46,070 bases of DNA from a virus. Position 1 is the stretch's first letter; every line of letters starts with the position of its first letter. The position numbers and the translations under genes were made by a program. The stretch covers positions 1 to 46,070 of IMG/VR virus record IMGVR_UViG_3300021090_000041; one strand, 5' to 3'. Of this stretch, positions 40,964-45,277 are shown one piece after another. The notes under the pieces were generated by a model. The model saw nothing but the letters and a program-made list of their open reading frames with translations, did no database searches and had not been told where the DNA came from.

Positions 40964-40980
40964 TATAACAAAGTTATAAC
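40964..40980. repeat. 17-base operator-like element TATAACAAAGTTATAAC
   Basis: Exact inverse complement of GTTATAACTTTGTTATA at 45261-45277. Contains TATAAC-AAA-GTTATA inverted arms. Lies 30 bases upstream of the late promoter -35. Confidence 0.65.
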
Positions 40981-41003
40981 AGAATTGGACGCCTGGGGAG
41001 AGT

Positions 41004-41355: not shown

Positions 41356-41384
41356 TTGAATTTCAAGCGCGATTGTGCTATGCT
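41356..41384 (+). promoter_or_regulatory. probable promoter of recombinase 2
   Basis: TTGAAT (41356-41361) and TATGCT (41379-41384) with a 17-base spacer, 48 bases before the GTG start. Confidence 0.5.
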
Positions 41385-41431
41385 CAAAGACATGGCCGTG
41401 CGTCGGGCTCAATCATCACAGGAGACACTAC

Positions 41432-42415
41432 GTGCAACCCCTAACCGTCCTCGTCGCCAAATTCATCACGGCCCGCATCGCCGATGGTCGCGCCCCCAAC
41501 ACGATCAAGGACTATCGCCGCGTGCTCGATCCGTTCGCCCAGCGTTTCCCCCTTGATCCCCTTAAAGGGGATGAAGGGGGCTGCCAGGCCGCCCCGCTCA
41601 CCCGCGACACGATCCGCGACTATGCCGCCCATCTGCGCACGCTCGGCTGGGGCGACGGCACCGTCGCCATTCACATCCGCAACCTGCGCGCGTTCCTACG
41701 CTGGCTTCACGACGAAGGCTACACGCCCGACAACCTGGCCTCCGCTATCAAAGCCCCGCGCCAGGTCATCCGCCATGAAATCCCGATCACACCCGATGAG
41801 GTGCGCCGGCTGCTGGCCACCTGCGACCCGGCCACCTTTCACGGCCGGCGCGATCGCGCCCTGATCCTGCTCCTGTGCGACACCGGCCTGCGCTCGGGAG
41901 AGATCGTCCGCCTGCGCCTGGGCGACTGGCGCCGCGAGCCAGAATCTGCCGGCAGAATCACCGGCAGCTACCTCTTGATCTATGCGCCCAAGACACGCAC
42001 CTACCGCTACGCCATCCTCGGCCAGGCCGCCACGGCCGCGCTGGAGAGCTATCTCGATCCGCGCGGAAATCTTCCAGGCGATGCGCCGCTGTTCTCTATT
42101 GCCCCCTTGAAGGGGGTTGCGAACGGCCAGGCGATGAAGACGCGCGCCATCGGCAGCCTGCTCGTGCGCCGCTCGGTCACCGCTGGCCTGGAGCGCTGCC
42201 GCACCCATCCCCACATCTTCCGCAAGGCGTTCGTCACCAGCTCACTCGACAACGGCATGGACGCCGAGCGCGTCCGCGTGCTGGCCGGCTGGACGACGAT
42301 GGCCATGTTCAAAGTCTACGCCGACTCGTCGCTGAGCCGGCTCCAGGAGGCGCACCGGCGCGCCGGGCCGGTGGATCGCATGGCGGAAAAGTGGAAGTCT
42401 GATGGAAGTGTGTAG
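41432..42415 (+). CDS. tyrosine recombinase/integrase 2
   Basis: 327 residues from GTG 41432 (CAGGAG lies 8 bases upstream; the frame is open to 41375). The core-binding domain occupies ~1-105. Catalytic residues are R154 (TGLRSGEIVRL), H261-x-x-R264 (HIFRKAF), W287 in the second His/Trp position, and Y296 (FKVYAD). All are in order. Two palindromic repeats are read in frame inside it (PLDPLKGDEGG at ~41548 and APLKGVANG at ~42102), in probable loops. It is the recombinase closest to the tRNA-Gln-derived attachment core at 43289, so it is the likely phage integrase. Catalytic-domain sequence differs clearly from recombinase 1. Confidence 0.95.
   Translation: MQPLTVLVAKFITARIADGRAPNTIKDYRRVLDPFAQRFPLDPLKGDEGGCQAAPLTRDTIRDYAAHLRTLGWGDGTVAIHIRNLRAFLRWLHDEGYTPDNLASAIKAPRQVIRHEIPITPDEVRRLLATCDPATFHGRRDRALILLLCDTGLRSGEIVRLRLGDWRREPESAGRITGSYLLIYAPKTRTYRYAILGQAATAALESYLDPRGNLPGDAPLFSIAPLKGVANGQAMKTRAIGSLLVRRSVTAGLERCRTHPHIFRKAFVTSSLDNGMDAERVRVLAGWTTMAMFKVYADSSLSRLQEAHRRAGPVDRMAEKWKSDGSV
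41548..41580. repeat. nested 33-base palindrome inside integrase 2
   Basis: The inner ATCCCCTT-A-AAGGGGAT (41556-41572) is perfect. It is flanked by CCCCCTTG and GAAGGGGG, complementary at 7 of 8. Read in frame as FPLDPLKGDEGG in the core-binding domain, which looks like a compound insertion of two family members. Confidence 0.75.
42102..42116. repeat. CCCCCTTGAAGGGGG palindrome inside integrase 2
   Basis: Identical, including flanks ATTG and TTGC, to the portal copy at 34402. Read as APLKGV between the catalytic Arg and His regions. Confidence 0.8.
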
Positions 42416-42476: not shown

Positions 42477-42501
42477 GTTGGAACTTTGAAAACTGAATCA
42501 G

Positions 42502-42795
42502 CTACGATGGTTTTACCGTTTCGGCCCAATCAACGATTTCACTGATGTGGGCTGTCAGTACCCATCGCCAGTGCTCGTTTCCCTCCGGCCAATCGTACAT
42601 GATGGTGTCATGGTACTCGATCAGCCGTGGTGAGTTGGTTACGCGCTGCTCGGCGCGGTCGCGGAGTGTGGGACGGCCTCCGCGTTGGCCGTTCATGCGG
42701 GCAGCTGCTTGTTTGGATTCGCTGGTGGATTTGCCGCCTCTGCGTCCGAGCAGGGCGGCGGCTTGACTGGTGATTCCGTCGAGTCCGTCTCTCAT
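42502..42795 (-). CDS. small phage protein with GGKSTSESKQAAARMNGQRGG motif region
   Basis: 97 residues. The N-terminal half carries a Gly-, Lys- and Ala-rich segment (LGRRGGKSTSES, ARMNGQRGGRP) common in short phage and plasmid proteins of unknown role. The C-terminal half is aromatic and acidic (EYHDTIMYDWPEGNEHWRWVL). It is preceded by AGGAGG and follows the 42805 gene by 9 bases in the same leftward operon. Its stop codon lies within the CTGAATCAGCTACG repeat. Confidence 0.65.
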   Translation of the reverse strand: MRDGLDGITSQAAALLGRRGGKSTSESKQAAARMNGQRGGRPTLRDRAEQRVTNSPRLIEYHDTIMYDWPEGNEHWRWVLTAHISEIVDWAETVKPS

Positions 42796-43056: not shown

Positions 43057-43084
43057 TCTGTGCTCCTCTCGATTTGCTGAATAC

Positions 43085-43113
43085 ATTATAACCCAACCGG
43101 TTGGGTTTGTCAA
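43085..43113 (-). promoter_or_regulatory. consensus promoter with an 18-bp palindromic operator in the spacer
   Basis: On the minus strand TTGACA (43113-43108) and TATAAT (43090-43085) with a 17-base spacer. AACCCAACCGGTTGGGTT (43090-43107) is a perfect 18-bp palindrome filling the spacer, so a dimeric repressor bound there would block RNA polymerase. Confidence 0.8.
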
Positions 43114-43181
43114 TGGGCAAAATGGGCAATTTGGAAAACTCGTTTTTGCCAATGATGGCAATGGATTCGTAGCTGATTCAG
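43108..43181. repeat. upstream control repeat, copy 1
   Basis: About 75 bases resembling 44651-44726 along their length: TGTCAA at the -35, GGCAAAATGGGCAATTT, AAAACTCGTTTT, then CGTAGCTGATTCAG. Both copies sit immediately upstream of leftward promoters, so the region is a duplicated control element. Confidence 0.7.
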
Positions 43182-43216
43182 TCTGTTTCGTGAACGCGCA
43201 TTACCAATACGACAAT

Positions 43217-43243: not shown

Positions 43244-43250
43244 GTGGTCA

Positions 43251-43274
43251 AGGGCGGCCCTCCGGCCGCCCTTC
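43251..43274. other. GC-rich hairpin next to attP
   Basis: AAGGGCGGCC and GGCCGCCCTT form a perfect 10-bp stem around CTCC, 15 bases before the tRNA fragment. There is no T-run beyond TTCG. Possibly structural or a terminator remnant. Confidence 0.4.
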
Positions 43275-43288
43275 GCGTTTCGTGGTGC

Positions 43289-43335
43289 ATGGACTTTGGA
43301 TCCATTATTCGAAGGTTCGAACCCTTCCTCCCCAG
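43289..43335 (+). other. attP core: 3' half of a tRNA-Gln(TTG) gene
   Basis: ATGGA-CTTTGGA-TCCAT is a complete anticodon arm with anticodon TTG. TATTC is a 5-base variable loop. GAAGG-TTCGAAC-CCTTC is a perfect T-arm. CTCCCCA plus discriminator G is the 3' acceptor strand. No D-arm or 5' acceptor partner (expected TGGGGAG) is present upstream, so this is only the 3' half, the usual content of a phage attachment core that restores a host tRNA gene after integration. Integrase 2 ends 870 bases away. Confidence 0.8.
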
Positions 43336-43356
43336 CCTATGGACCTTAACAACTGA

Positions 43357-43707
43357 TCAGCTACGAGGAAATAGCACAGAGCGAATGTAGGCGCTCAGGC
43401 TCACACCTGCTGAGTGAGCACGCTCCTCGATGTCTGCACGTTCGGCATCGGAGCAGCGAACGGCTGGCAGGGTGCTGTCCATATCGCCGTCATCGGCGGT
43501 GGATTCGACGAACAGGGCCAGCAACTCGCGCTCTTTGGGTGTGAATGTTGCCTCGTGGTCGCCCAGAGCCATCTCGACCGTCCGGTTATAGCGAAATTGC
43601 AGGACGGGTGACTGGGCCTTGATAGCCTGCAACGTCCTCAGTGCCTCGCTGCCCGCAGTGGGCGATTTGGCGATGATGAGCTTGATGGCGTCGGTCATGG
43701 TAGACAT
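43357..43707 (-). CDS. ribbon-helix-helix/MobC-like small DNA-binding protein
   Basis: 116 residues. The C-terminal VRCSDAERADIEERAHSAGVSLSAYIRSVL resembles the MobC/RHH pattern (strand followed by two helices with SxxxYxR) that binds DNA as a dimer. The N-terminal part is helical and unrelated. GGAGGT precedes ATG 43707. It is the last gene of the leftward cassette from the promoter at 44628. It could bind one of the palindromic operators in this region; that is inference. Confidence 0.6.
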   Translation of the reverse strand: MSTMTDAIKLIIAKSPTAGSEALRTLQAIKAQSPVLQFRYNRTVEMALGDHEATFTPKERELLALFVESTADDGDMDSTLPAVRCSDAERADIEERAHSAGVSLSAYIRSVLFPRS

Positions 43708-44611: not shown

Positions 44612-44656
44612 CTGCATTCTGTATCACATTGTATCACAGCGTAATGCAGGTGTCAA
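44612..44656 (-). promoter_or_regulatory. consensus promoter with operator repeats for leftward cassette
   Basis: On the minus strand TTGACA (44656-44651) and TACAAT (44633-44628) are 17 bases apart. CTGCATT (44612-44618) and AATGCAG (44643-44649) are inverted arms, and GTGATACA occurs twice in direct repeat between them across the -10. A repressor of the divergent HTH gene type is the expected ligand. Confidence 0.7.
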
Positions 44657-44726
44657 GAGGCAAAATGGGCAATTTCAAAAACTCGTTTTCACCAATACCC
44701 GCAAGCGATTCTCGTAGCTGATTCAG
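44651..44726. repeat. upstream control repeat, copy 2
   Basis: About 75 bases similar to 43108-43181, including GGCAAAATGGGCAATTT and CGTAGCTGATTCAG. It lies between the leftward promoter and the rightward HTH gene, so it is the intact divergent control region. Copy 1 looks like its duplicate. Confidence 0.7.
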
Positions 44727-44743
44727 ACTAGATGAGGTGATCC

Positions 44744-45196
44744 ATGTCCATCCAACCCACCGTCATCCCCCTCCCCGAGGCCGCCCAGCGCCTCCGCGTC
44801 CCCCTCTCCCTATTGACCCGCATGGTCCTTTCTGGTACACTAAAGGCAGTCACCACGACGGACGGTCAAGTTCTGCTGCCGCTGGAGGCGGTAGACCATA
44901 TGGCAAAGGGGATCGCAGTGCGAGACAAGATTTGGAACAAGGTCAAAGGCTTCGAAGGTGAGACGGTCAGCACCCTGGAGGCTAGGGATGTTTTCAACAT
45001 TTCTGACCGGACTCTATATCGGTGCATTGAAAATGGCTACATCCGCGCCGGAAAAGGAAGCAAAGGCGGACGTGGGAAGAAGCGACTACTCAACAAGGCC
45101 GATGTGCTCTACGTTTCCGAGCTTGCCAAGCTAGGCGGTGGACGCGGACACAGGCTGTTTGGCCCAGACACGATCCCTCCCCACATGCTCAATTGA
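44744..45196 (+). CDS. HTH DNA-binding protein (excisionase/MerR-like double winged helix)
   Basis: 150 residues with two excisionase-type winged helices. The first is around residues 8-52 (LPEAAQRLRVPLSLLTRMVLSGTL, VLLPLEAVDHM) and the second around 78-130 (EARDVFNISDRTLYRCIENGYIR, KKRLLNKADVLYVSELAKL). Such proteins bind attachment-site DNA to direct excision, or act as repressors. Divergent from the leftward cassette and close to attP, it fits a Xis/regulator role. GAGGTGAT ribosome site; followed by a strong terminator. Confidence 0.75.
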   Translation: MSIQPTVIPLPEAAQRLRVPLSLLTRMVLSGTLKAVTTTDGQVLLPLEAVDHMAKGIAVRDKIWNKVKGFEGETVSTLEARDVFNISDRTLYRCIENGYIRAGKGSKGGRGKKRLLNKADVLYVSELAKLGGGRGHRLFGPDTIPPHMLN

Positions 45197-45231: not shown

Positions 45232-45260
45232 AAAGCCCACTCTTCGGAGTGGGCTTTTTT
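45232..45260 (+). terminator. strong intrinsic terminator
   Basis: AAAGCCCACTC and GAGTGGGCTTT form an 11-bp stem capped by a TTCG tetraloop and followed by T residues. It ends the HTH gene transcript. Confidence 0.9.
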
Positions 45261-45277
45261 GTTATAACTTTGTTATA
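45261..45277. repeat. 17-base operator-like element GTTATAACTTTGTTATA
   Basis: Exact inverse copy of 40964-40980. Lies 18 bases upstream of the early promoter -35 at 45296. Confidence 0.65.

Follow-up and report, generated by a model that had tools for sequence, protein, structure and literature searches.

A tRNA-Gln(TTG) 3' half near an integrase gene is the predicted attP core of an uncultured phage

Results

Positions 43289 to 43337 of an uncultured phage sequence very probably form the core of an attachment site (attP), which the product of a nearby integrase gene would use to enter a host tRNA-Gln(TTG) gene. This reading draws on the fragment itself, the integrase gene, a related element's att pair, and in silico reconstitution of the tRNA. 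The window (the whole stretch of DNA analyzed) is one 46,070-base IMG/VR virus record encoding a terminase, portal, major capsid protein, helicase, and FtsK-like protein, and no end repeats were found in the record. The features around the core are as follows:

41375..42415, plus strand: tyrosine recombinase (integrase) (PF00589, E=8.5e-20; phrog_1 integrase, E=3.4e-37)
43250..43273, no strand: GC-rich hairpin AAGGGCGGCC/GGCCGCCCTT (inverted repeat I19), directly upstream of the core, at the expected place of the tRNA 5' half
43289..43337, plus strand: predicted attP core, tRNA-Gln(TTG) 3' half that starts with the anticodon stem (5' strand) and runs through the discriminator to CC (direct reading)
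43357..43707, minus strand: gene for a small NikA-like protein, directly right of the core (PF21983, E=3.8e-9)
44744..45196, plus strand: HTH_17 DNA-binding protein (PF12728, E=5e-11)

A tRNA 3' half beside an integrase gene

Read in order, 43289-43337 consists of ATGGA, CTTTGGA, and TCCAT (the anticodon arm, with 5/5 pairs, the loop at 43294-43300, and anticodon TTG), TATTC (the variable loop), GAAGG, TTCGAAC, and CCTTC (the T-arm, 5/5 pairs), CTCCCCA (the 3' acceptor strand), and G (the discriminator), followed by CC. The original prediction had placed an intact tRNA-Gln(TTG) 3' half, without its 5' half, at 43289-43335. These coordinates are exact and the arms are fully paired; direct reading of the sequence upstream of the core found no D-arm or 5' acceptor, and neither ARAGORN nor Rfam detected a tRNA in the 46,070-base window. 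The 5' acceptor it had predicted for the host gene, TGGGGAG, is the start of all ten closely matching real tRNA-Gln(TTG) genes. We also scanned the window for tRNA 3' halves of every kind, requiring 5/5 pairs in both the T-arm and the anticodon arm. The core was the only match, whereas order-2 Markov simulations of the window gave 3 matches in 400 (approximately 0.008 per window, before a Gln anticodon and a matching acceptor are required).

The integrase gene ends 873 bp before the core, with small genes in between. Its product has all the catalytic residues (R173, K206, H280, R283, W306, and Y315), which are invariant in alignment A1. The SAM-like core-binding domain begins near residue 35, and the protein seems to lack an N-terminal arm-binding domain.

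Split attachment site of a related element

The two closest integrases found (43 to 45% identical) are encoded in genome G259, which belongs to the class of G009, a Thermoflexales MAG of the phylum Chloroflexota by which we refer to the class of the sampled genomes. One of them (45% over the part present) ends approximately 20 bp before a tRNA-Gln(CTG) 3' half, and a second copy of this half lies inside an intact tRNA-Gln on another contig, C186. The two copies share 45 identical bases, from CTCTGAATCC in the anticodon loop to CCAGCCAC just past the tRNA/CCA, and diverge at once left of the loop (GCGGG on the element side versus GCGGA in the tRNA). Beyond the intact tRNA-Gln lies an HTH gene related to that at 44744-45196 in the window (31% identity; pairwise E=6e-10). 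The opposite flank of this tRNA carries chromosomal genes, one of which we take, from its translation, to be uvrB. The pair is thus read as the attR and attL of an element related to the window phage, and it gives strong support to the attP reading of the window core. Several observations count against that reading: the G259 attL and attR are on different contigs of one MAG, the gap between the integrase and the half is approximately 20 bp in G259, compared with 873 bp in the window, and the genomes scanned gave no integrated copy of the window phage and no exact core, the nearest tRNA having 3 mismatches. No words of at least 11 bases common to both G259 att flanks were found. Since the half lies beside the integrase and the HTH gene beyond the intact tRNA, the predicted G259 attP would have the same integrase-core-HTH order as that of the window. 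A matching core in attB and attL/attR was seen for this related element and not for the window phage itself.

Phages carry tRNA genes, and fragments of such genes also occur in them, so that the core could be what is left of a decayed tRNA gene of the phage and take no part in integration. We consider this very improbable, because the half shows perfect pairing and breaks off neatly at the anticodon stem, in the manner of att cores, because the window has no other tRNA, and because the related G259 element has the same half in the same place beside its integrase. There is also very little chance that the contig represents a chimera or a prophage in its integrated state, with the fragment as attR and host DNA after it: an integrase followed by a 3' half is indeed what is seen at attR in G259, but the sequence right of the window core looks like phage, the relative of its HTH gene is on the attL side in G259, and a repeat of 104 nucleotides (43083-43184 and 44626-44729) is common to both sides of the core.

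Integrase family and predicted crossover

No close relative of the integrase was found in 50,697 phage records or in IMG/VR scans; searches of viral contigs by single sequence and by alignment gave no relatives. The 30 best more distant relatives (approximately 25 to 31% identity) are all from genomes of the phylum Chloroflexota. A tRNA gene lies 53 to 358 bp upstream of the integrase gene in 23 of these 30 loci, against a rough estimate of 5% for random loci of this size, and displaced tRNA fragments were found at eight. Four loci (L032, L035, L036, and L059; L036 is cut by the contig end) have repeats running from tRNA position 28-33 toward the 3' end, and four others (L038, L050, L051, and L052) have repeats that begin at the tRNA 5' end and reach position 39-42. 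Positions 33-39, essentially the anticodon loop, are shared by both sets. By analogy, the predicted crossover overlap in the window core is CTTTGGA (43294-43300), flanked by the inverted repeat ATGGA/TCCAT of the anticodon stem. The original reading of the fragment as an attP core is supported by these att repeats, together with the integrase nearby, the split attL/attR in G259, and the in silico reconstitution described below.

The integrase relative lies 5' of the tRNA gene in 10 of the 23 loci (L037, L038, L043, L044, L048, L050, L051, L052, L055, and L057), and in four of these (L038, L050, L051, and L052) there is a displaced tRNA 5' half that stops at the anticodon loop. Islander lists 5' fragments as rare (159 of 3919 islands) (PMC4383910). 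Tentatively, the window integrase may be one of a large family of enzymes that is common in Chloroflexota and cuts within the anticodon loop of many tRNA genes, some elements carrying the 3' half and others the 5' half; the window core would be a phage attP of that family.

Reconstitution of the tRNA and model of integration

When the 5' parts of host tRNA-Gln genes were joined in silico to the window core at C32, ARAGORN called tRNA-Gln(TTG) in 10 of 10 joins; neither attP alone nor attR alone scored as a tRNA. Integration therefore need not harm the host tRNA. In the proposed model, the integrase (41375-42415) would recombine the attP core (43289-43337) with the matching 3' half in a host tRNA-Gln(TTG) gene, exchanging strands within the anticodon loop (7 bp). 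Integration would join the host 5' half to the phage 3' half, so that a complete tRNA-Gln is rebuilt at attL, and the displaced host 3' half would come to lie next to the integrase gene, at attR. Since the attP in the contig is joined and lies between the integrase gene and the HTH gene, the contig would be the excised or virion form.

Host tRNA-Gln genes

The original prediction held that an exact match to the core would name the host. This did not succeed: the exact 46-mer was absent from approximately 85,000 genomes, the exact core was absent from approximately 520 sampled genomes of the class of G009, and no integrated copy of the window phage was found in the genomes scanned. Viral contigs contained neither the exact 46-mer nor a degenerate core. 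The missing host match does not weigh against the site, because attP need not be identical to attB: in phage Boilgate the two differ at 5 of 43 bases (PMC10865867).

A degenerate search of the approximately 85,000 genomes recovered nine intact tRNA-Gln(TTG) genes, all starting with TGGGGAG and mostly from Dormibacterota and Chloroflexota MAGs (one was from Elusimicrobia). The nearest tRNA is the tRNA-Gln(TTG) of G280, a genome of the class of G009, which matches the core at 43 of 46 bases. Its anticodon arm and variable loop are identical to those of the core; of the three differing bases, two form a compensated T-stem pair and the third is T-loop base 60. A 34.5-kb MAG contig of the same class (G312:C80; L065 and L066) has several relatives of the window virion genes, including those for the portal (37%) and capsid (34%). 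It has no recognizable tyrosine integrase or tRNA half and may be part of a related phage or prophage. Among viral contigs, the best capsid relative (L002; 88%) comes from a fragment of 21 kb that does not include the integrase-attP region. The resemblance of the tRNA, the closest integrases, and the portal and capsid relatives all indirectly favor the earlier guess of a Chloroflexota host, and the host of the window phage is probably a member of this phylum.

Repeats around the core

The 11-mer TCGTAGCTGAT occurs exactly four times in the window, all within 2.2 kb around the core, as speculative binding sites:

42497..42507, minus strand: TCGTAGCTGAT motif, putative accessory protein-binding site
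43167..43177, plus strand: TCGTAGCTGAT motif, 111 bp to the left of the core
43356..43366, minus strand: inverted TCGTAGCTGAT motif, 18 bp to the right of the core
44712..44722, plus strand: TCGTAGCTGAT motif

We considered these as arm-type sites and do not claim this role, because two copies are part of the 104-nucleotide duplication, two extend into the ends of genes, and, as noted, the integrase seems to be without an N-terminal arm-binding domain. The duplication itself is a direct repeat with 72% identity over 86 nucleotides and then 94% over 18. Its copies are upstream of two minus-strand gene groups, one on each side of attP, and it looks like a duplicated promoter or operator. A 21-nucleotide sequence containing TTATAACTTTGTTATA is present as inverted copies at 40964-40984 (between a holin-like gene and the integrase gene) and 45257-45277 (after the HTH gene). 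The copies are 95% complementary and are possible operators.

Discussion

Using a tRNA gene for attP is a standard, textbook arrangement in phages; its location in the window phage is new. The arrangement resembles the Islander class A of anticodon-loop tRNA att sites, with a tyrosine integrase and an attP made of a tRNA 3' half (PMC4383910; Williams 2002 cited there). In that class the crossover is in the anticodon loop and the tRNA is regenerated, as predicted for the window (PMC4383910). Anticodon-centered sites account for 2083 of 3919 islands in Islander, and 3760 of 3919 have a 3' fragment (PMC4383910). Unlike the class A examples, the window is an uncultured phage, probably of Chloroflexota, without a close integrase in the phage records or IMG/VR scans. 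The PYG1 island of Pyrococcus yayanosii is in tRNA-Gln(TTG) with 44-bp repeats (PMC9897764). Its target isotype is the same as that of the window core and its repeat length is similar; PYG1 is, unlike the window phage, an archaeal genomic island.

In Boilgate- and Omega-type mycobacteriophages, attP holds a tRNA 3' half (43 to 44 bp), and the tRNA is rebuilt at attL (PMC10865867). The window attP is likewise a 3' half, with rebuilding at attL predicted, although the hosts differ. Fionnbharth represents tRNA-dependent lysogeny (PMC10865867). This type does not apply here, because the core, at approximately 47 bp, has the length needed for rebuilding the tRNA, and no tRNA gene is present in the window.

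The core gives a defined predicted integration site to a virus without a close cultured relative. It narrows the host to bacteria with such a tRNA-Gln(TTG), most likely Chloroflexota, whose phages are poorly known, and the integrase-attP pair could serve as an integration tool for this phylum.
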